Shown in pieces: positions 9,909-39,598 of a DNA stretch of 64,000 nucleotides. The position numbers and the translations under genes are program-made. Location: assembly GCF_024749045.1 (NCBI RefSeq), contig NZ_CP087184.1, positions 1,426,001 through 1,490,000 of the forward strand, read 5' to 3'. Position 1 is the first letter of the stretch, and each line of letters opens with the position of its first letter. The stretch is from Pseudomonas sp. B21-028. GTDB taxonomy: Bacteria > Pseudomonadota > Gammaproteobacteria > Pseudomonadales > Pseudomonadaceae. Under the pieces are notes generated by a model. That model saw only the letters and a program-made list of their open reading frames with translations, was not told the DNA's origin and searched no databases.

Positions 9909-10397
9909 TCAGCGAGCGAAGTAGCCTGCGCAGCACTTCTTGAACTTGTGCCCGCTGCCGCACGGGCAACTGTCGTTGCGCCCGGTCTTGACCGGTACGG
10001 TCGGGTCGATGAAATACCAGCGCCCCTCGTTCTGCACGAATGACGACTGTTCGCGATGGGCGTGTTCCCCCTGGCCGTCGTGCCAACGCGCGGTGAAGGT
10101 GACAAAGGCATGCTCCGGCTGCCCACCGAACACCTCGCTGCTTTCCACCTCCAGCCCCAGCCACGTGCTTTTGCTGCTCCACTCACTGATGGAGAGGCGA
10201 TCGAGGCCCTCCTGCTGGGCGGGCAGGGTGGTGCTCACCAGGTAATCCACCAGCCCCAGCACATAGGCACTGTAGCGCGAACGCATCAGGGCTTCGGCGC
10301 AGGGGGCCGGGTGGCCGTCGTGATAATGGCCGCAGCAGGCGTTCAACGGGTTGCCACTGCCACAGGGACAAATGGTTGCGTTCAAGCTTGTGTTCAC
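9909..10397 (-). CDS. ychJ: YchJ family protein with two SEC-C zinc motifs
   Basis: A 162-aa homologue of E. coli YchJ. An N-terminal SEC-C-like motif ([19 protein letters not shown]) precedes the YchJ middle domain ([47 protein letters not shown]). The protein ends in a second SEC-C motif, [18 protein letters not shown]. Both clusters should bind zinc. The biochemical function of YchJ is unknown. Start: GTG complementary to 10395-10397, 2 nt after the TAG of the upstream DUF6231 gene, implying coupled translation. A longer in-frame extension exists but reads back through the neighbouring gene. Confidence 0.88.
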
Positions 10398-10399
10398 GG

Positions 10400-10897
10400 C
10401 TACCACCAATATTTTCCGAAGTTTTCGGGGTTGGCCCAAAAACGTGAATTGAGCCAATCGGGGACTTGTTTGTATTCAAGCAGATCGTAGGTAAACAGGG
10501 TCAGCACCTGTTCCTCGCGCTGGAACCGCTCACTGGCTTGCAGGGCCAGGGAAAAGAAGTCCGTTTCCTGCCAGCCACAGGCATCGAGGTCAGCCAACAC
10601 GGCGATACGGCTGGCGTTGAGATTACGAATGCCGCCCAGCAGGTTCAGACCGTCGCGCTTGGGCACGTGTTCCAGGCAATCGAGTGCCAGGGCCAGGTCG
10701 AAGCGCTGTCCGGCCACCTCCACCGGCAGCGGGCCGGGAGCAACCTGGACCACTTCGGTGTCGGGATGCGCCTGCTGGAACGCCTCGAGGGCGGGAAAGC
10801 TGCTGGCGCCGACCAACAGCAGTTTTCGCGGGGCATAACGGTCAAGCACGGCGGCCAGTGCTTGCTGGGGTGTGCGCGATGAAATGGCAACGGTCAT
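10400..10897 (-). CDS. DUF6231-type protein, methyltransferase-like fold
   Basis: A 165-aa protein resembling a short Rossmann methyltransferase: [15 protein letters not shown] is a glycine-loop-like start, and [15 protein letters not shown] resembles methyltransferase motif IV (DxLEHV). The classical GxGxG is degenerate (VGASS), so S-adenosylmethionine binding is doubtful. It corresponds to a Pseudomonas-restricted conserved family annotated DUF6231, with the characteristic C-terminal ENFGKYWW. Start: ATG complementary to 10895-10897 with GAGG about 9 nt upstream. It is the first gene of a minus-strand run continuing with ychJ. No function is assigned. Confidence 0.75.
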
Positions 10898-29825: not shown

Positions 29826-30527
29826 TCAACCACCCAGGTACGCCTCGCGCACCTTCGGATCGGTCAGCAGCGCTTCACCGGTGCCCTGCATCACCACGCG
29901 ACCGTTCTCCAGCACATACGCCCGGTCGGCGATTTTCAGGGCCTGGTTGGCGTTCTGCTCCACCAGGAACACTGTCACGCCATCCTTGCGCAGCTGTTCG
30001 ATGATGTCGAAGATCTGCTGAATGATGATCGGTGCCAGGCCCAGGGAGGGCTCGTCGAGCAGCAGCAGCTTGGGCTTGCTCATCAGCGCGCGGCCGATGG
30101 CGAGCATTTGCTGTTCACCACCGGACATGGTGCCGCCGCGCTGAGTAAAGCGTTCTTTCAGGCGTGGGAAAAGGTGCAGGACCTTGTCCATCTGTTCCTG
30201 AAAATCGCCCTTGTCGGTGAAGAATCCGCCCATGGCGAGGTTCTCTTCCACGGTCAGCCGGGCAAACACCCGACGGCCTTCCGGCACCACCGCAATGCTC
30301 TTGCGCATGATCTCTGACGAGTCCTGGCCCACCAGTTCCTCACCCATGTAGCGGATGCTGCCGCTGTGGGCCTGGGGCGAACCGCAGAGGGTCATCAGCA
30401 GGGTGGACTTGCCAGCACCGTTGGCGCCGATCAGCGTCACGATTTCGCCCTGGCGCACGTCCACGTTGACGCTGTGCAGGGCCTGGATCTTGCCGTAGAA
30501 GGTGGAAACGTTTTCGAACTGCAGCAT
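29826..30527 (-). CDS. livF: Branched-chain amino-acid ABC transporter ATPase LivF (BraG)
   Basis: A 233-aa ABC ATPase powering high-affinity uptake of leucine, isoleucine and valine, paired with LivG. Walker A GANGAGKST, Q-loop, signature MSGGEQQMLAIGRAL, Walker B KLLLLDEPSLGLAP and the H-switch region FLVEQNA. The LivF-specific absence of the extra LivG insert and the N-terminus MLQFENVSTFYGKIQAL agree with the family. Last gene of livHMGF; its ATG is immediately adjacent to the livG stop, with no gap. Confidence 0.96.
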   Translation of the reverse strand: MLQFENVSTFYGKIQALHSVNVDVRQGEIVTLIGANGAGKSTLLMTLCGSPQAHSGSIRYMGEELVGQDSSEIMRKSIAVVPEGRRVFARLTVEENLAMGGFFTDKGDFQEQMDKVLHLFPRLKERFTQRGGTMSGGEQQMLAIGRALMSKPKLLLLDEPSLGLAPIIIQQIFDIIEQLRKDGVTVFLVEQNANQALKIADRAYVLENGRVVMQGTGEALLTDPKVREAYLGG

Positions 30528-31295
30528 TTACGCTTCCCCCAGGTAGGCTTTGATCACTTCAGGATTGTCCCGGATCTGTTCCGGCGTGCCGTTGGCCAGG
30601 GGAGTGCCCTGGTTGATCACCACGATGTGGTCGGAAATGCTCATGACCAGTTTCATGTCGTGCTCGATCAGCAGCACCGTGACGTTGTGCTCCTCACGCA
30701 GCACGCCGATCAGGGCTTTCAGGTCTTCGGTTTCCCTCGGGTTCAGGCCGGCGGCCGGTTCGTCGAGCATGAGGATCCGCGGACGGGTCATCATGCAGCG
30801 GGCGATTTCCAGGCGCCGCTGTTGACCGTAGGCCAGGGTGCCGGCGGTACGGTTGGCGAACTCCGTGAGATTGACCTTTTCCAGCCAGTACTCGGCGTAC
30901 TCCATCGCTTCGCGTTCGCTCTTGCGGAACGACGGGGTCTTGAACAGACCAGCGAAGAAGTTGGTGTTCAGGTGACGATGCTGGGCGATCAAGAGGTTCT
31001 CGATGGCCGTCATGTCCTTGAACAACCGCACGTTCTGGAAGGTGCGCACCACGCCCTTGAGGGCGATCTTGTGCCCCGGCAGGCCCTGGATCGGCTCGCC
31101 GTCCAGCAGGATGCTGCCGCCAGTTGGCTGGTAGAAGCCGGTCAGGCAGTTGAACACCGTGGTCTTGCCCGCGCCGTTCGGCCCGATCAAGGCAACCACC
31201 TGTTTCTCTTTCACGGTCAGGGCCACGCCATTGACCGCCAGCAGGCCGCCGAAGCGCATGCTTAGGTTTTCAACCTTGAGGATCTCGCGGCTCAT
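30528..31295 (-). CDS. livG: Branched-chain amino-acid ABC transporter ATPase LivG (BraF)
   Basis: A 255-aa ABC ATPase with Walker [10 protein letters not shown], the LivG-type long insert after the Q-loop ([20 protein letters not shown], then [21 protein letters not shown]), signature [15 protein letters not shown], Walker [14 protein letters not shown], switch His in LLIEHDM. Start ATG complementary to 31293-31295 overlaps the livM stop by 4 nt. Forms a heterodimer with LivF on the membrane complex LivH/LivM. Confidence 0.96.
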
Positions 31296-32545
31296 TTGCG
31301 CAGCTCCATGTGGGGGCGTTGCATAGGCAGCAGACCTTGAGGACGCCAGATCATCATCAGCACCATCAAGGCGCCGAACATCAACATGCGGTATTCGCTG
31401 AACTCACGCATCATTTCGGGTAGCAGGATCATCACGATGGCGGCCAGGATCACACCCAGCTGCGAGCCCATCCCGCCCAGCACCACGATGGCGAGGATGA
31501 TCGCCGACTCGATGAAGGTGAAGGATTCCGGCGTCACCAGGCCCTGGCGGGCAGCGAAGAAGCTGCCGGCGAAACCGGCGAAAGCGGCACCCAGGGTGAA
31601 GGCCGACAGCTTGATCACGGTCGGGTTGAGACCCAGGGCACGGCAGGCGATTTCGTCTTCGCGCAGCGCTTCCCACGCACGGCCGATGGGCATGCGCAGC
31701 AGGCGGTTGATGACGAACAGCGCGGCCAGGGCCAGCAACAGTGCAACCAGGTAGAGGAACACCACTTTGCTCACCGGGTTGTAGGTCAGCCCGAAGAACT
31801 CGTGGAAGGTCTGCATGCCCTCGGCCGCATTGCGGTCGAAACTCAATCCGAAGAAGGTCGGCTTGGGAATGTTGCTGATGCCGTTGGGGCCGCCGGTGAG
31901 GTCGGTGAGGTTACGCAGGAACAAGCGGATGATCTCACCGAAGCCCAAGGTCACGATGGCCAGGTAGTCGCCCCGCAGGCGCAGCACCGGGAAGCCCAGC
32001 AGGAAGCCGAACGTGGCCGCCATCATCCCGGCGATCGGCAGGCAGATCCAGAAGCTCAGGCCCAAGTAGTGGGAGAGCAGCGCGTAGCTGTAGGCGCCCA
32101 CCGCGTAGAATCCCACATAACCCAGGTCAAGCAGCCCGGCCAGGCCGACCACGATGTTCAGGCCCAGGCCCAGCAACACGTAGATCAGGATCAGGGTGGC
32201 GATATCCACTGCCCCTCGGGAGCCGAAGAACGGCCAGATCAGGGCAACCACGATCAGGCCGATGATGATCCGGCGCTGGGTGCGTGGCAGGGTCAGGAAC
32301 TGGCTGACCTTGGGCGAAACCAGCGGGCCATGGCTGGAGCGCAGCACGGCGTTGACCTGTTGGCTGAACAGCACCCGCAGGAACATCAGCACCGAGCACA
32401 AGGCAATGACGCTCAGCGTCAGCGGGCCGGTACCGTGCACTTCAAGGTTGACGCCGACAATGCTCAGCTTGAGGCCGAGCACCGGAAAGGCTACGGCCCA
32501 GACCAGCAGGGCGCTGAACAGCGCCTGTTTAAGATATTTGCTCAT
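31292..32545 (-). CDS. livM: Branched-chain amino-acid ABC transporter permease LivM (BraE)
   Basis: A 417-aa inner-membrane permease. An N-terminal extension with spans (about 1-100: [21 protein letters not shown]) precedes the LivM core, which includes [53 protein letters not shown], the ATPase-contact EAA-like loop [19 protein letters not shown], and [20 protein letters not shown]. Length and N-terminal extension match Pseudomonas BraE. Overlaps its neighbours by 4 nt on both sides. Confidence 0.96.
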
Positions 32546-33465
32546 ACTTTCTCAACCTCCGGGCGGCCCAGGATGCCGGTCGGCCGGAACAACAGAACCA
32601 GGACCAGGAGACCGAACGCAACCACGTCCTTGTACTGGTCTCCGAAGATATCGGCGCCGAATGCTTCGGCCACCCCCAGCACCAGCCCGCCGAGCATCGC
32701 CCCCGGAATACTGCCGATGCCACCCAGTACCGCCGCGGTAAAGGCCTTCAGGCCTACCAGGAAACCGGCGTTCGGGTTGATCACGCCGTACTGCATGCTC
32801 AGCAGCACGGCAGCGACGGCCGCCAGCGCGGCACCGATGACGAAGGTCAGGGCGATGATGTTGTTGGTGTTGATGCCCAGCAGGTTGGCCATCTTGATGT
32901 CCTCGGCACAGGCGCGACAGGCGCGGCCCAGGCGGGAACGGGAGATGAACAGGGTCAGGCCGAGCATGGCGATCAGGGTCACGACGAAGACCACGATCTG
33001 CATGTAGGAAATCAGGACTTCTTCAGCACCGCCCGGGCCGAAGGAGAAACTCCCCGGGATCAGGTTGGGAATGGACTTGTCCTTGGAGTCCTGGGACAGC
33101 AATACGGTGTTTTGCAGGAACAACGACATGCCGATGGCGGAAATCAGCGGAATCAGACGGTTGCTGCCACGCAAGGGCTGGTAGGCAACACGCTCGATAC
33201 TGTAGCCATAGGCACTGGTCACGACGATCGACGCTATGAACGCGGCGGTCATCAACAGCGGCAGTGAGTGGATACCCAGCATGGCCAGCCCGGCAAGGGC
33301 AATGAACGCCACGTAGGAACCGATCATGTAGACCTCGCCATGGGCGAAGTTAATCATTCCAATGATGCCGTAAACCATTGTGTAGCCAATGGCTATCAAG
33401 GCATAGGTGCTGCCAATGGTCAGGCCATTAACCAGCTGTTGGAAAAAGTGATAGATCTCAGGCAT
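32542..33465 (-). CDS. livH: Branched-chain amino-acid ABC transporter permease LivH (BraD)
   Basis: A 307-aa permease. [49 protein letters not shown] is the LivH start, recognised by segments such as [38 protein letters not shown] is the coupling loop, and [20 protein letters not shown] the conserved late span. Eight or more predicted spans. First gene of livHMGF, separated from livK by 274 bp containing a terminator and a second hairpin, which should lower its expression relative to livK. Confidence 0.96.
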
Positions 33466-33641
33466 TACAGCGCTCCTAAAAACCCGATACGCATTTCACT
33501 GGTGGAGTCATGTTCCGGCCTTGTGCTGTGTTCTGTGAGCACATTTGCACAAAGCGTTTGCCAGCGAACCGCTGGTGACGGTTTTAAGATTTTCAGGTGA
33601 ACCAGCGCCCGGATCGCGGGTGCCTGGCCCATAAACCTCGT

Positions 33642-33672
33642 AAAACAAAGCCCACTGCTTGCACAGTGGGCT
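33642..33672 (-). terminator. Intrinsic terminator/attenuator between livK and livH
   Basis: agcccactg (33649-33657) pairs with cagtgggct (33664-33672), loop cttgca. Reading on the minus strand it is followed by the U-rich ttgtttta (33642-33648). Expected to end most livK transcripts, with read-through supplying livHMGF. Confidence 0.8.
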
Positions 33673-33683
33673 CGTTGACCGTG

Positions 33684-33730
33684 AGTGTCCTGTCTCACAA
33701 AAAAAGAACGTATGTGTGAGACAGGACACT
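33684..33730 (-). terminator. Long hairpin directly after livK
   Basis: agtgtcctgtctcac (33684-33698) and gtgagacaggacact (33716-33730) form a perfect 15-bp stem with a 17-nt A-rich loop, beginning 9 nt past the livK stop. It sits in tandem with the U-tailed terminator. Likely stabilises the livK 3' end against exonucleases. Confidence 0.75.
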
Positions 33731-33739
33731 AGGCCTGGC

Positions 33740-34867
33740 TTACTGAGGGGAAACTTCGGTTTTCGGTTTGCCGAAGTGCCACTGGTAGACCACGAATTTG
33801 AAGTCCTTCAGGTCGCCTTTCTCGTTGAACGACAGTTCGCCGGTCGGGGTCTTGAAGGTGCCTTTGTGGATGGCTTCGGAAACCTTGGCGGTGTCTTCGC
33901 TCTTGGCGGCCTTGATACCTTCGGCGATCAGCTCGACGGCGGAGTAGGCCGGGAACACGAACGGGCCGCTTGGATCCTTGCCGTCGGCCTTGATGGCCGC
34001 AACGATTGCCTGGTTCTCGGGATCGGCGTCGAAGGATTTCGGCAGGGTCACCAGCAGGCCTTCGGAAGCGCCCTGGGCAATTTGCGAGATGGAGTCGTTG
34101 CCGACGCCTTCAGGCCCCATGAACTTGGCGTTCAGGCCTTTTTCCTTGGATTGACGCAGGATCAGGCCCAGCTCTGGGTGGTAGCCGCCGTAGTAAACGA
34201 AGTCGACGTTGTTCTGCTTGAGCTTCTGGATGATCGAGGAGAAGTCCTTGTCACCGGCGTTCAGGCCTTCGAATACGGCGACTTTCACGCCTTTCTTCTC
34301 GAGGGTCTGCTTGACGGCGCTGGCGATGCCTTCACCGTATTGCTGTTTGTCGTGCAGGACCGCAACGACTTTCGGCTTGACGTGGTCGGCGATGTAGTTG
34401 CCGGCGGCAGGGCCTTGGGCGCTGTCCAGGCCGATGGTGCGGAAGACCAGCTTGTAGCCACGGGCGGTGATTTCCGGGCTGGTGGCTGCTGGGGTGATCA
34501 TGATCACGCCTTCGTCTTCGTAGATGTCCGAAGCCGGTTGGGTGGAGCTGGAGCACAGGTGGCCGACGACGAACTTGACGCCATCGTTGACCACTTTGTT
34601 CGCCACGGCTACGGCCTGTTTAGGGTCGCAGGCATCATCGTATTCCATGGCTTCGAGCATCTTGCCGTCGACGCCGCCCTTGGCATTGATGTCCTTGATG
34701 GCTTGTTTCGCGCCAACGAATTGCATATCGCCGTACTGGGTCACCGGACCGGTTTTCGGACCGGCGATGCCGATCTTGATGGTGTCGGCGGCGAACGAAT
34801 GGCTGGCAACCCCGGCCAGAACCATAGCGGCAAACAGTTTGGAAATCTGCTTAGTAGCCTTAGTCAT
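33740..34867 (-). CDS. livK: Branched-chain amino-acid-binding protein LivK/BraC
   Basis: A 375-aa periplasmic type I binding protein for Leu/Ile/Val (and often Ala/Thr in Pseudomonas BraC). Sec signal peptide ISKLFAAMVLAGVASHSFA (cleaved near residue 26), mature start ADTIKIGIAGPKTGPVTQYG. Further motifs: YDDACDPKQAVAVANKVVND, VVGHLCSSSTQPASDIYEDE (Cys pair typical of the family), and YYGGYHPELGLILRQSKEKG. Transcribed from its own promoter in the 337-bp region upstream. The downstream hairpins separate it from the permease genes. Confidence 0.96.
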   Translation of the reverse strand: MTKATKQISKLFAAMVLAGVASHSFAADTIKIGIAGPKTGPVTQYGDMQFVGAKQAIKDINAKGGVDGKMLEAMEYDDACDPKQAVAVANKVVNDGVKFVVGHLCSSSTQPASDIYEDEGVIMITPAATSPEITARGYKLVFRTIGLDSAQGPAAGNYIADHVKPKVVAVLHDKQQYGEGIASAVKQTLEKKGVKVAVFEGLNAGDKDFSSIIQKLKQNNVDFVYYGGYHPELGLILRQSKEKGLNAKFMGPEGVGNDSISQIAQGASEGLLVTLPKSFDADPENQAIVAAIKADGKDPSGPFVFPAYSAVELIAEGIKAAKSEDTAKVSEAIHKGTFKTPTGELSFNEKGDLKDFKFVVYQWHFGKPKTEVSPQ

Positions 34868-35204: not shown

Positions 35205-35510
35205 ATGAATCAAGAACCTAGCACCCTCTATGCCAAACTGCTTGGAGAAACTGCATCCATTACCTGGAAAGAACTGGAGCCGTTCTTTGCCAAGGGTGCC
35301 CTGTTATGGGTCGAACCTGCACTGGATTTGATCGCTGCCGCCGAGGCTGTCGCTCAGGACGAAGGCGATAAAGTCGCCGCCTGGCTGGCCGCCGGGCAGC
35401 TCGCCAAGCTGTCTGAAACGCGGGCGCTGGATTTTCTGGAGCGCGATCCAGTGCTGTGGGCGGTGGTGGTTTCGCCCTGGATAATGATCCAGGAAAGGGC
35501 GTCGAATTGA
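35205..35510 (+). CDS. DUF2288 family protein
   Basis: A 101-aa soluble acidic protein. The motif order YAKLLGETASITWKELEPFFAKGALLWV, LDLIAAAEAVAQDE and WLAAGQLAKLSETRALDFLERDP is the DUF2288 pattern found across gammaproteobacteria and cyanobacteria. Function unknown. ATG at 35205; no strong ribosome site is apparent. Followed by a hairpin terminator at 35638. Monocistronic. Confidence 0.85.
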   Translation: MNQEPSTLYAKLLGETASITWKELEPFFAKGALLWVEPALDLIAAAEAVAQDEGDKVAAWLAAGQLAKLSETRALDFLERDPVLWAVVVSPWIMIQERASN

Positions 35511-35637
35511 TCAATGCACCAAATTGGTTCGTGGTTGAATCGAATAAAAGTGTGTAGCTGAGTAGCGTGATGGCACCCTGCCGTGGTGAAACGCCACAGG
35601 GCAGGGTGACGTATACGTAACGGGAACAGTTCATGGG

Positions 35638-35653
35638 GCAGCCTTCGGGCTGC
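35638..35653 (+). terminator. Terminator-like hairpin downstream of the DUF2288 gene
   Basis: gcagcc/ggctgc stem with a stable ttcg tetraloop, followed by ttaattgtttc. Located 128 nt after the stop. Confidence 0.6.
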
Positions 35654-35690
35654 TTAATTGTTTCTGGATGTTGTTTCCGGTAGTCCTACA

Positions 35691-35787: not shown

Positions 35788-37965
35788 TCAATAAGTCCTG
35801 CCAGTATGGTTATTAAGCGAAATAACCTTGGTCTTGCCAATGCGATGACGGTAGATCTCGCGCAGGTACTTGATGGCTTTCTTCACGCAATCACGGGACA
35901 GGCGGATGTCGTTGATCGAGACGAATTTGTCCTTGTCGCTGATCAGCTCGCGGTATTTCTTTTCGTACATCGGCTTGATCGCGTACCAGTTGGTGTCGAG
36001 GATTTTCGCCGGGTTCTCGAATTCGTTGAGCAGTTCGTCTATCCGTTCCTCATCGAAGTCTTCATTGATGATGAAGTCCAGGATCGAGTTGTCCAGGGTG
36101 TCGTCGAAGCGGTACGGGTTGCGGGCGAAGCAGCGTTTGATGAAGGCCACGATCAGGGTCAGGAAATCATCCGACAGGCATGGGCTCTTGGCGATCAGGG
36201 TGGTCAGCGACAGGTTGGCCGAGGCGCCGATCACCAGGGCATAACGCTTGAGCGTGGTGTTGGGGAACAGGCTGTTGAGGTGGGTCTTGAGCCGGTTCAG
36301 GTCCATGTAAGACAGCTTGTAGTCCTTGGGCAGCGAAACGATGGACACCACCGAGGAGCAGTTCTTGAAGAAGTGCAGGTCATGCAGCGCGGCGGCGTCG
36401 TAGCCGGAATTCTTGTACTGCTCCAGCGAGGCCCGGTAGCGCTTGGATTCGATCGGCAACAGGCTGATGCCTTCGATGGCCTGGGTCACTTTATTGAAGT
36501 GCGGCAGGTCGATGGAGCGGAAGAACAGGTCGTCGATGTTCAGGCGTGGCGGTTCTTTGTCGAACACCTTGAACTTGTCGCCGCTCGGCGCCGGGGTTTC
36601 CGGGACGACGGATTCGGCATAGGCAATCGCCACGGGACCGGCCAGGCTCATGAACAGGTCGTTGGCGTCCAGGCGGATGGTTTCACCGATGTCGATGCCG
36701 GCGCGACGGAAATAGTTCTGGTCGTAGTCGGTGGTGACCGCCTGGGCCGTCAGGATGTTGAAGATCTGTTGGGAGATGTACTGGTTGGCGTGCTTCTCCA
36801 TGGCGTTGACGTCGATGTTCTGGATGTTGCCGTCATCGTTCTCTTCGGCGTAGCGCATGATGTCGTTGGAGATCAGCATCATTGCGTTCCAGGGGCGGAT
36901 ACGGCCCATGACGCTGGCTTCGCTGCTGTCTTCATTGGCGAAGTTGTACGAGAAGTCCCATTCTTCCGACAGGTACTTGCACAGCAGGCGTCCGGCGTTG
37001 ATGTGCAGGGCTTCGGACATTTCGCTGCGGTGATCGGAAATGTTCGGCAGTACGCAGATGCCGCTGGTGAAGATCGGTTCGAAGACGAAAGAGTGGCCAC
37101 TCTTGCCGTCGTGCTCGTCCATCGGCTTGGTGTCGAACGTCTTGTTCATGTACGAATGCTGCTGGGCCAGGCCGAACTCCGAGGCCATGCCCGAACCGGT
37201 ACCGCCGCCGGCGCTGAAGATCGAGAAGTACAGGCGCGACTGGTTGGCCTTGATGCCGCAGCTGTCGATCAGGTACGAGTGGATCATCTTCCAGTCGGGG
37301 CTGGAGAAGCGCTGGGTATCCTTGTTCAGGATGATCTTGGCCAGGTACTGGCCCAGGATCGGCGCGTTACCGGCGCCACCGGCATGGACTTCCGACAGGT
37401 CCATGATTTTCATCTTGCTGTAGTCGCGCAGGAAGCCGGTCTTTTCGCCCTTGCGTGAGAAGCGGATGCGTCCGGCGATGTCCTTGTCCAGGTCGCCGAG
37501 CATCACCAGCGGCTCCACCAGGAACACCGGTTTGCTCGCCTTGCCGGTGCCCAGGCGCAGGTTGTTGCGGATCCACTGCGCGGGACGGTAGCCCTTGTCG
37601 CTGTAGGCCTTGTCTTCGTTGTTGAATTCGTTGAGGTAGAACTTGCGGGCGTTGTAGACCAGCTCGGCCACGTCCAGGGCGATGTTGGAGCCGCAACGCC
37701 CCAGGCCGATCAGGCACACCGACGGGAATTCCTGCTGGTCGCGTTCGCTCTCGTCGTCCACCAGATGGGGAGGACGGGGAAATACGATGTCGCGCAAGCC
37801 ATCGAGGTTGTCGAGGATGCGGTCGGTGTTGGTCTCGGTGAAATACAGATACTGCTGCGTCTCCAGGGGACGCGAGCTGGTCGATGACTTCGGGGTCTCA
37901 GGGCCGTTGGCGGCCGGGCCCAGGGTCAGATCGGATACCGCAGTGGCTGTTTTTTTTGAGGTCAT
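35788..37965 (-). CDS. Tubulin/FtsZ-like GTPase, large chromosomal type
   Basis: A 725-aa protein that I assign to the tubulin/FtsZ superfamily from its nucleotide loops. A T1-like glycine loop, CLIGLGRCGSN (about 84-94), closes the first strand of a Rossmann-like fold. A T3-like AGGAGNAP is at about 195-202. The tubulin signature SAGGGTGSGM (251-260) matches GGGTG[ST]G of tubulin and FtsZ exactly. A possible T7 catalytic loop is NIDVNAME (383-390). The first about 80 residues are Ser/Thr/Pro-rich. The C-terminal 300 residues show no recognised domain and end in a basic stretch. It is about twice the size of FtsZ or phage PhuZ and resembles the poorly studied 'tubulin-like' Pfam group. No signal peptide or membrane span. 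Monocistronic; base composition as neighbours. Function unknown. Confidence 0.8.
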   Translation of the reverse strand: MTSKKTATAVSDLTLGPAANGPETPKSSTSSRPLETQQYLYFTETNTDRILDNLDGLRDIVFPRPPHLVDDESERDQQEFPSVCLIGLGRCGSNIALDVAELVYNARKFYLNEFNNEDKAYSDKGYRPAQWIRNNLRLGTGKASKPVFLVEPLVMLGDLDKDIAGRIRFSRKGEKTGFLRDYSKMKIMDLSEVHAGGAGNAPILGQYLAKIILNKDTQRFSSPDWKMIHSYLIDSCGIKANQSRLYFSIFSAGGGTGSGMASEFGLAQQHSYMNKTFDTKPMDEHDGKSGHSFVFEPIFTSGICVLPNISDHRSEMSEALHINAGRLLCKYLSEEWDFSYNFANEDSSEASVMGRIRPWNAMMLISNDIMRYAEENDDGNIQNIDVNAMEKHANQYISQQIFNILTAQAVTTDYDQNYFRRAGIDIGETIRLDANDLFMSLAGPVAIAYAESVVPETPAPSGDKFKVFDKEPPRLNIDDLFFRSIDLPHFNKVTQAIEGISLLPIESKRYRASLEQYKNSGYDAAALHDLHFFKNCSSVVSIVSLPKDYKLSYMDLNRLKTHLNSLFPNTTLKRYALVIGASANLSLTTLIAKSPCLSDDFLTLIVAFIKRCFARNPYRFDDTLDNSILDFIINEDFDEERIDELLNEFENPAKILDTNWYAIKPMYEKKYRELISDKDKFVSINDIRLSRDCVKKAIKYLREIYRHRIGKTKVISLNNHTGRTY

Positions 37966-38248: not shown

Positions 38249-39598
38249 ATGCAGAACTCGACCCAAGCGGCGAATGCCTGGCGCATTCTGTTCCTGTTGT
38301 TTCTGGCCAACCTGTTCAATTTTTTCGATCGCACCATTCCGGCGATCATCATCGAGCCGATCCGCATGGAATGGAGCCTCAGCGACTTCCAGATCGGCAT
38401 CATCGGCACTGCGTTCACCATCGTGTACGCCATTGCCGGCCTGCCGCTGGGGCGCATGGCCGATACCGGTTCGCGCAGCAAGTTGATGGGCTGGGGGCTG
38501 GCGGCCTGGAGCGGGCTGACGGCCGTCAATGGCCTGGTGGGCAGTTTCTGGGCGTTCCTGTTGGTGCGCATGGGCATCGGCATTGGCGAGGCCAGTTATG
38601 CGCCGGCTGCCAACTCGCTGATCGGTGACCTGTTCCCGGCCCACCGTCGGGCGCGGGCCATGGGGATCTTCATGCTGGGCCTGCCGATCGGATTGCTGTT
38701 GGCGTTCTTTACCATCGGGGCGATGGTCAAGGCCTTCGACAGCTGGCGCGCGCCGTTCTTTATTGCGGCGGTGCCGGGGCTGGTGCTGGCGGTCTTCATG
38801 TTCTTTATCAAGGAGCCCAAGCGCGGTGCTGCGGAAACCGTGCCGGTGTCTCAGGAGAAAATCGACCGGCCGATCCGTCGGGTGCTGGCGATTCCCACTT
38901 TTCTGTGGCTGGTGCTGGCGGGGTTGTGTTTCAACTTCGCCACCTATGCCTGCAACTCGTTCCTGGTGCCGATGTTGCAGCGTTACTTCCTGATGCCCCT
39001 GCACGAAGCCGCCGTGGCCACCGGGATCATGGTGGGCGTGACCGGGTTGTTCGGGCTGACCCTGGGCGGCTGGATCGCCGACAAGATTCATCAGCGCGTT
39101 GCCAATGGCCGGTTGCTGTTCGCTGGGTTCAGTCTGATCATTTCCACACTGACCACGGCTTGGGCATTGCATGCCGGACGGATTGAAATCGGCGTGTTCG
39201 TTGCGGTGTTCAGCGTCGGTTGGCTGTTTGCCTATACCTTCTATACCTGCGTGTACACGGCGATCCAGGACGTCGTGGAGCCGCGCCTGCGGGCGACGGC
39301 GATGGCGTTGTTCTTTGCCGGGCTGTACCTGCTCGGCGGCGGCCTGGGGCCGGTGGTGGTCGGCGGTCTGTCGGACTACTTCGCCCGCACGGCCATGGCC
39401 GCTGCCGGTGTCCCGCAGATGACCGAGGCGTTCAAGGCCATCGGTTTGCACGACGCGATGTACCTGATTCCGGTGGCGCTGTTCCTGACCATGGTGTTCC
39501 TGTTCCTGGCATCGCGCTGTTTCGCCCGCGATGCCAGGCGGATGAAGGAGGGGATGAGTGCGCAGGTGGAGCCGGGGATTGTGGTGGCGACGGCTTGA
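38249..39598 (+). CDS. MFS transporter, spinster-like family
   Basis: A 449-aa, 12-span major facilitator. LFLLFLANLFNFFDRTIPAI opens span 1; the loop 2-3 motif is GRMADTGSRSKLMGWG; GIGIGEASYAPAANSLIGDLFP is the span 4-5 signature of the spinster/Bcr-like organic-solute group; EPRLRATAMALFFAGLYLLGGGLGPVVVGGLSD lies in the C-terminal half. No adjacent catabolic genes on the same strand identify the substrate. ATG at 38249 after an AT-rich 283-bp region shared with the tubulin-like gene's promoter. Confidence 0.85.
   Translation: MQNSTQAANAWRILFLLFLANLFNFFDRTIPAIIIEPIRMEWSLSDFQIGIIGTAFTIVYAIAGLPLGRMADTGSRSKLMGWGLAAWSGLTAVNGLVGSFWAFLLVRMGIGIGEASYAPAANSLIGDLFPAHRRARAMGIFMLGLPIGLLLAFFTIGAMVKAFDSWRAPFFIAAVPGLVLAVFMFFIKEPKRGAAETVPVSQEKIDRPIRRVLAIPTFLWLVLAGLCFNFATYACNSFLVPMLQRYFLMPLHEAAVATGIMVGVTGLFGLTLGGWIADKIHQRVANGRLLFAGFSLIISTLTTAWALHAGRIEIGVFVAVFSVGWLFAYTFYTCVYTAIQDVVEPRLRATAMALFFAGLYLLGGGLGPVVVGGLSDYFARTAMAAAGVPQMTEAFKAIGLHDAMYLIPVALFLTMVFLFLASRCFARDARRMKEGMSAQVEPGIVVATA

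Follow-up and report, generated by a model that had tools for sequence, protein, structure and literature searches.

A Pseudomonas gene of the FtsZl2 type: a tubulin/FtsZ superfamily protein that may form its own polymer

The gene considered here encodes a protein of 725 residues in Pseudomonas sp. B21-028, which we assign below to the FtsZl2 family. The window, the whole stretch of 64,000 nucleotides that was analysed, comprises bases 1426001-1490000 of one contig of 6493931 bases. The gene is thus chromosomal, as an earlier note on this DNA had claimed. That note also described the gene as standing alone and native in composition. Both descriptions agree with the surroundings (Table 1): FtsZl2 is convergent with a DUF2288 gene on one side and divergent from an MFS transporter gene on the other, and its GC3 of 0.851 lies inside the range of seven neighbours (0.63-0.87). 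A terminator-like hairpin separates the convergent genes; the pattern scan found six such sites in the region, versus 3.6 in shuffles. The closest loci, at 99% identity, are those of P. mediterranea, P. corrugata and two further Pseudomonas strains, which probably places the genome in the P. corrugata group. The braC-like gene is part of a branched-chain amino acid ABC transporter operon (29826-34867, minus strand) for a binding protein, two permeases and two ATPases, and such an operon lies near FtsZl2 in many Pseudomonas loci.

Table 1. Features of the FtsZl2 gene, its protein and its neighbours (window coordinates; the last row refers to other loci)
Feature	Position	Strand	Basis
FtsZl2 gene	35788..37965	-	ORF, 725 aa, ATG start
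T1 loop GLGRCGSN, residues 87-94	37684..37707	-	top FtsZ T1 segment match, from residue 82
Candidate T2 loop GDLDKDI, residues 157-163	37477..37497	-	invariant in 33 rows
T3 loop HAGGAGNAP, residues 194-202	37360..37386	-	top FtsZ T3 segment match, at 193; hhalign
T4 signature SAGGGTGSGM, residues 251-260	37186..37215	-	PF00091 match; segment scan
Candidate S6/T6 MLISNDIMRY, residues 363-372	36850..36879	-	Tubulin_2 match extends to 374
NIDVNAME, residues 383-390, read here as H7 start	36796..36819	-	just past T6 candidate
Candidate H7, residues 385-411, with invariant N394	36733..36813	-	conserved block
Candidate T7 RLDANDLFMSL, residues 431-441, with acids D433 and D436	36643..36675	-	431-440 invariant in 145 rows
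C-terminal region, residues 470-725 (256 aa)	35788..36558	-	no Pfam family above cut-off
Basic amphipathic C-terminal helix, residues 687-711	35833..35907	-	highest moment of the protein
DUF2288 gene, convergent with FtsZl2	35205..35510	+	PF10052, E 4.5e-29
Terminator-like hairpin between convergent genes	35636..35655	+	pattern scan
Branched-chain amino acid binding protein, braC-like	33740..34867	-	NF011933 above cut-off
MFS transporter, divergent from FtsZl2	38249..39598	+	PF07690
Large sensor-type protein, Marinomonas loci	L116:5567-8629; L189:9913-13026; L191:9969-13022		

The open reading frame and the four motifs named in the earlier note (SAGGGTGSGM, GLGRCGSN, AGGAGNAP at residues 195-202, and NIDVNAME) were located, and the protein is almost certainly a member of the tubulin/FtsZ superfamily, as had been proposed. 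This is supported by Pfam matches across the family together with a segment scan for T1, T3 and T4. With the N-terminal part alone as query, Tubulin_2 (PF13809) matches residues 197-374 (E 7.5e-4) with 19.3 bits, below its cut-off of 27 bits; PF00091 matches the T4 signature (E 0.0024) with 18.6 bits, below its cut-off of 33 bits. The search with tubulin-like models that had been suggested as a check returned both families, but neither reached its curated cut-off. At E<=0.05, Tubulin_2 matches 28 and PF00091 25 of 33 family members. When segments of the FtsZ profile were slid along the protein, T1, T3 and T4 peaked at residues 82, 193 and 245, the T4 segment with a z of 5.9 and the T1 segment barely ahead of its score at the T4 block (4.7 versus 4.6). 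At the places where T2, T5, T6, H7, T7 and the C-terminal strands were expected, the same scan did not find them. Comparison by hhalign with 31 FtsZ sequences, at default settings, aligned the T3-T4 block only (197-266, E 0.0068, probability 5.6%) and gave no alignment over H7-T7 or the C-terminal part.

These scores allow another reading, in which the protein is of an unrelated Rossmann type, binds a nucleotide or NAD and has glycine-rich loops that resemble those of the superfamily by chance. Pfam matches under the curated cut-offs would fit such a protein, as would predicted models of low confidence in which no core is recognisable. We consider it very improbable, since three separate superfamily loops occur in the right order, Tubulin_2 and PF00091 independently match most of the 33 members, no other family matches better, and an independent HHpred result for the P. 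fluorescens protein PFL_1302, given in the available text of a 2010 study, had an E of 0.0033 (PMC2875224). According to the earlier note, a match to an unrelated NAD-binding family with no tubulin match would have spoken against membership; the tubulin profiles match, and no NAD-binding family was matched in Pfam and NCBIfam profile searches. Matches to MIF4G (E 0.15 and 0.031) and malate:quinone oxidoreductase (E 0.15) are at chance level, and searches of PDB sequences, NCBIfam, PADLOC and PHROGs gave nothing relevant to the protein.

The nucleotide loops are strongly conserved. Conservation was counted in an alignment of 145 rows, which are 144 distinct rows because P0219 was entered twice, and in a smaller set of 33 rows. 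Across the 145 rows, G87 and G89-N94 of T1 are invariant, as are T3 except for A198 and T4 except for G259 (144 rows). The candidate T2 loop, which we take to resemble the DLEP loop of tubulin, is not selected by the FtsZ T2 segment in the profile scan, nor does that scan detect the S6/T6 candidate. The loops GRCGSNI, GDLDKDI, GAGN and FEPIF, set beside tubulin motifs, might place FtsZl2 nearer to tubulin than to FtsZ.

The position of T7 probably has to be revised. In the superfamily, helix H7 sits between T6 and T7. The earlier note had offered NIDVNAME as a T7 candidate, which is probably wrong: judging from the Tubulin_2 match, S6/T6 lies at about 363-374 and H7 must follow, so that a T7 loop in NIDVNAME would leave no room for H7. 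Its N383, moreover, is kept in 50 of the 145 rows; D385 and E390 are invariant. A low-confidence predicted model has a helix at residues 386-413, in the zone of the H7 candidate. The better candidate for T7, as yet unproven, is RLDANDL (431-437), in which D433 and D436 have the same spacing as the acids of NVDFAD, a motif of FtsZ. Residues 431-441 are not singled out by the FtsZ profile scan. The best match of its T7 segment, at 471-490, is within background; there D478 is N in 4/33 and 4/145 rows and N476 is kept in 75/145.

The extra C-terminal region described by the earlier note was found as well (Table 1). FtsZ_C was not matched within it at E<=10 (HMMER, filters on). Residues 538-600 had been read by eye as S8-H10-S9-S10 of FtsZ (activation domain), a reading to which hhalign and the segment scan gave no support. 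Two AlphaFold2 models, from the 33-row alignment and from the 145-row alignment of residues 36-722, are of low confidence (mean pLDDT 44 and 47). We attribute their failure to the low diversity of the family (Neff 14 at 80% in a 150-row set; hhalign Neff 2.0). Local confidence in the C-terminal region of the second model is 65-88 in parts and below 50 elsewhere, and a Foldseek search with this low-confidence model gave no match at E<=0.001. The matches in a VIA fold list depend on helices from the part modelled with low confidence, and the absence of FtsZ and tubulin among the rows listed proves nothing.

Near its end the protein has a basic amphipathic helix; in all 291 sequences compared, the moment of this helix reaches 0.45 or more. 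The protein has no evident transmembrane segment, its highest 19-residue hydropathy being 1.4. The helix might tether FtsZl2 to the membrane, an idea that we hold only tentatively and think doubtful. Its charge is mostly basic and falls to -1 in some members, and its combined helix score of 2.42 compares with 1.87 in the adjacent ABC ATPase; for both reasons the helix may merely pack on the core.

The family goes back to Makarova and Koonin, who described FtsZl2 ("FtsZ-like 2") in 2010 from PFL_1302 of P. fluorescens Pf-5; the available text of their paper gives it FtsZ-type loops, a C-terminal region of about 300 residues with no known relatives, and no gene context, and places it in Proteobacteria only, with Marinomonas among the examples (PMC2875224). 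The novelty implied by the earlier note therefore falls away: this is an already described family. The present protein shares with PFL_1302, compared by description with that text, the genus, the GGGTG(S/T)G loop, a weak PF00091 match, a long T1-T4 stretch, a C-terminal region of about 300 residues, coexistence with FtsZ, the lack of associated genes and the mention of Marinomonas, with no difference found. In the protein itself, the GGGTG(S/T)G signature occurs together with the T1 loop, residues 470-725 match no Pfam family above its cut-off, and across genera the gene has no consistently shared neighbour in the loci compared. Its own genome holds one PF00091 match at E<=0.001, the ordinary FtsZ (5.34 Mb, 397 aa), and, in a genome-wide search, no PF13809 match. 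As these features agree and the genome holds no superfamily match besides FtsZ, we infer from them that the gene is an orthologue of FtsZl2.

Comparison with other members of the superfamily sets it apart. With FtsZl1, the Tubulin_2 type, it shares its best-covering profile match (197-374) and a large C-terminal extension, but the score of 19.3 bits is below the 27 required and no vWA, OmpA or protein kinase match occurs among ten neighbouring ORFs (two of which matched nothing). It has the T1, T3 and T4 loops of FtsZ in the same order and is likewise chromosomal; unlike FtsZ, it has 725 rather than 397 residues, is patchy and not universal, scores 18.6 versus 33 bits with PF00091, and has no match to the FtsZ C-terminal domain. 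TubZ and PhuZ, which we take to be members of the same superfamily distinct from FtsZ, are presumably about half its size, and FtsZl2 differs from them in lying on a chromosome and having no relative in the plasmid and phage records searched. A superfamily survey published in 2023 kept Tubulin_2-type proteins, in its available part, separate from its main reconstructions (PMC9871819). Our literature searches found no functional study of FtsZl2 among the papers available. Two candidate papers concern, in their available parts, the FtsZ L272E mutant (PMC7327170) and FtsZ (PMC2817675), and PP_1143 of P. putida KT2440, considered as a possible FtsZl2 locus, is annotated as a 3-hydroxyisobutyrate gene in the record available.

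FtsZl2 is widespread in Pseudomonas and patchy elsewhere. A match occurs in 161 of 249 Pseudomonas genomes; 88 have none. The match is single in 159 of the 161, and the two-match genomes are assemblies of 650 and 880 contigs. FtsZl2 is further present in 29/48 genomes of Marinomonas (genus g299), 28/57 relatives, 23/390 genomes of the order, 3/369 of the class sample (own genome and one false match included) and 9/398 of the phylum sample (own genome and the broken copy in G787 included). Of 7993 candidates scored in a protein search, 663 are homologues at E<=0.001. Named sources, among the matches listed, are Rheinheimera, Arsukibacterium, Cellvibrio, Alkalimonas, Celerinatantimonas, Paraglaciecola, Corallincola and Neiella. 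We take the recognised named organisms among the best 120 of 647-663 matches per search to be gammaproteobacteria; genomes were searched within the phylum. Records of plasmids (72,556) and phages (50,697) yielded no relative, which, with the chromosomal contig, upholds the claim that this is not a plasmid or phage setting; IMG/VR viral contigs, scanned with two short peptide patterns only, also gave no match.

Some matches needed separate consideration. Apparent stops inside Marinomonas copies are read as the genes' own stops, since each of 13 loci holds an open frame of 674-696 residues. One match (G1161) shows three apparent stops, and another (G294/L118) is, by eye, a GlnE-like false match. 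The copy in G787 is truly broken and was excluded from comparisons of intact genes. It lies in pieces (L115:8901-11729), with an ORF that by eye is esterase-like (GDSL/SGNH type) between its halves, at 9988-10620.

The neighbours of FtsZl2 are conserved inside Pseudomonas, inside the Marinomonas-type genus and inside family f14, and they differ in other genera. Of 100 loci, the window included, 88 contain a relative of braC and 85 one of the MFS gene. At Pseudomonas sites that lack FtsZl2, braC and DUF2288 are adjacent in 10/10, and the MFS gene is also within the stretch in 4/10 (L208, L209, L213, L214). The DUF2288 and MFS matches are separated by 273 bases in L213 and by 2.7-3.3 kb in the other three. 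No adjacent gene was consistently common across genera when 16 loci were compared all against all, with 11 loci listed. Two looser links between genera were seen, of L114 (G092) with L116 and of an ABC-type cluster with L117.

Within single groups, several neighbours recur. A large protein with, by eye, an ammonium-transporter-like start adjoins FtsZl2 in three of five Marinomonas loci (sensor-type protein, Table 1), and in G092 a protein related to part of it is encoded two genes from FtsZl2 (L114:2056-4791). In all five Marinomonas loci (L116, L117, L189, L190, L191) a gene like exopolyphosphatase/GppA is found a few genes upstream; the family assignment was made by a profile check on L189. 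Both f14 genomes have a lipoprotein-like gene divergent from FtsZl2 (L113:164-1549, L188:3311-4750), and the protein from L188 has no NCBIfam match. The L113 protein is listed as from a Cellvibrionales bacterium.

FtsZ was found in 20/20 genomes checked, 19 of which carry intact FtsZl2, and the two proteins can be compared in their rates of change. Identities to the window's genome were taken over full length in 18 genomes. Inside Pseudomonas they are 85-97% for FtsZ and 79-94% for FtsZl2. Farther away they are 72 and 77% for G1053, 70 and 73% for G906, 67 and 76% for G092, 60-61 and 69-71% for Marinomonas, and 65-72 and 60% for G048 and G878. FtsZl2 is the more similar of the two in 6/18 genomes and full-length FtsZ in 12/18. 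The lead of FtsZl2, where it exists, is partly due to the variable tail that full-length FtsZ includes. The FtsZ core of 298 residues gives 79% for G1053, 73% for G906, 71% for G092, 67% for Marinomonas and 70-71% for G048 and G878. Between genera, the conservation of FtsZl2 as a whole roughly equals that of the FtsZ core and does not clearly exceed it; FtsZl2 is clearly less conserved than FtsZ in G048 and G878, and also less inside Pseudomonas.

The trees of the two proteins differ. An FtsZ tree of 20 genomes keeps Pseudomonas together (100/100). The FtsZl2 tree places G092 inside Pseudomonas, although the AU test does not reject a single Pseudomonas clade (p 0.056). Other groupings in it are better supported: Paraglaciecola is placed with Marinomonas (100/98) and away from Catenovulum and Aestuariibacter (100/99), and Cellvibrio, as which G1053 was taken, falls with Rheinheimera, Arsukibacterium and Alkalimonas (100/98). 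The usual taxonomic orders of these genera are assumed, and Atopomonas and Echinimonas, on long branches, are placed unsurely. The pattern suggests that FtsZl2 has moved between gammaproteobacterial genera as a lone gene, though hidden old duplications followed by losses may have produced it instead.

How might such a protein work? Because the nucleotide loops are present, FtsZl2 very likely binds GTP, which would be held through T1-T6. That it also forms a polymer of itself is somewhat favoured. Subunits would stack head to tail, an acidic T7 loop, with D433/D436 as the best candidate, would reach the nucleotide of the next subunit, and this contact would trigger GTP hydrolysis in that neighbour. 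The 2010 authors predicted filaments for FtsZl2 in the available text (PMC2875224). Our overall explanation, a GTP-binding, self-polymerising FtsZl2 orthologue, we regard as reasonably likely. The cellular role is a guess: a conditional function in the cell envelope or shape and not in division, with the C-terminal helix perhaps holding the homopolymer at the inner membrane. FtsZl2 is not the essential division protein, because canonical FtsZ is encoded in the same genome and 88/249 Pseudomonas genomes lack a match.

Alternatively, FtsZl2 might be a non-polymerising switch or sensor that binds GTP; its nucleotide core would be preserved, and its inserts and large C-terminal region would have replaced the longitudinal contact by some other function. 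The profiles recognise the nucleotide side only and leave T7 and the FtsZ/tubulin C-terminal domain unrecognised, and the whole protein is constrained rather than the core alone, as for a regulator with many contacts. We nevertheless think such a switch unlikely: the stretch that follows the putative H7, residues 431-440, contains two acids and is invariant in 145 rows, as T7 needs, and the available text of the 2010 study notes that those members of the superfamily characterised by then formed filaments (PMC2875224). FtsZl2 could also modulate FtsZ, co-assembling with its filaments or capping them and so adjusting division under some condition. The presence of FtsZ in every genome checked would suit this, as would the lack of partner genes, which a modulator of an ever-present FtsZ would not need. 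It seems quite improbable, however, because no profile match covers the longitudinal interface of FtsZ, the gene is absent from so many Pseudomonas genomes, and a direct role in division was thought unlikely by the 2010 authors (PMC2875224, in its available text).

For the favoured self-polymerising protein, a self-sufficient homopolymer would be suited to a lone, apparently mobile gene that has no consistent neighbour, and a portable, partnerless gene constrained throughout fits a homopolymer with no needs beyond universal host components. In its fullest form, which is speculative and on the whole unlikely, this explanation has a membrane-bound, self-sufficient homopolymer whose targets are host components shared by gammaproteobacteria. 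The gene would then work at once after transfer, and the whole surface of 700 residues would be constrained about as much as the FtsZ core.

New here are the findings that FtsZl2 is common in Pseudomonas and Marinomonas, strongly conserved, apparently mobile as a single gene and without a match in the plasmid, phage and viral collections searched. That a tubulin-superfamily protein with no known function occurs in about two-thirds of the Pseudomonas genomes sampled marks a genuine gap in the study of a much investigated genus. A second tubulin-type filament in Pseudomonas is directly testable, because FtsZl2 is a single gene and many species lack it. CRISPR interference in P. fluorescens SBW25 already gives ftsZ and mreB phenotypes, according to the available text (PMC6828691). 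One further genome, G878, has a second weak FtsZ-type match besides FtsZ (C166:7071-7400; 29% over 109 residues, E 2.9e-4), in a frame of 403 residues.
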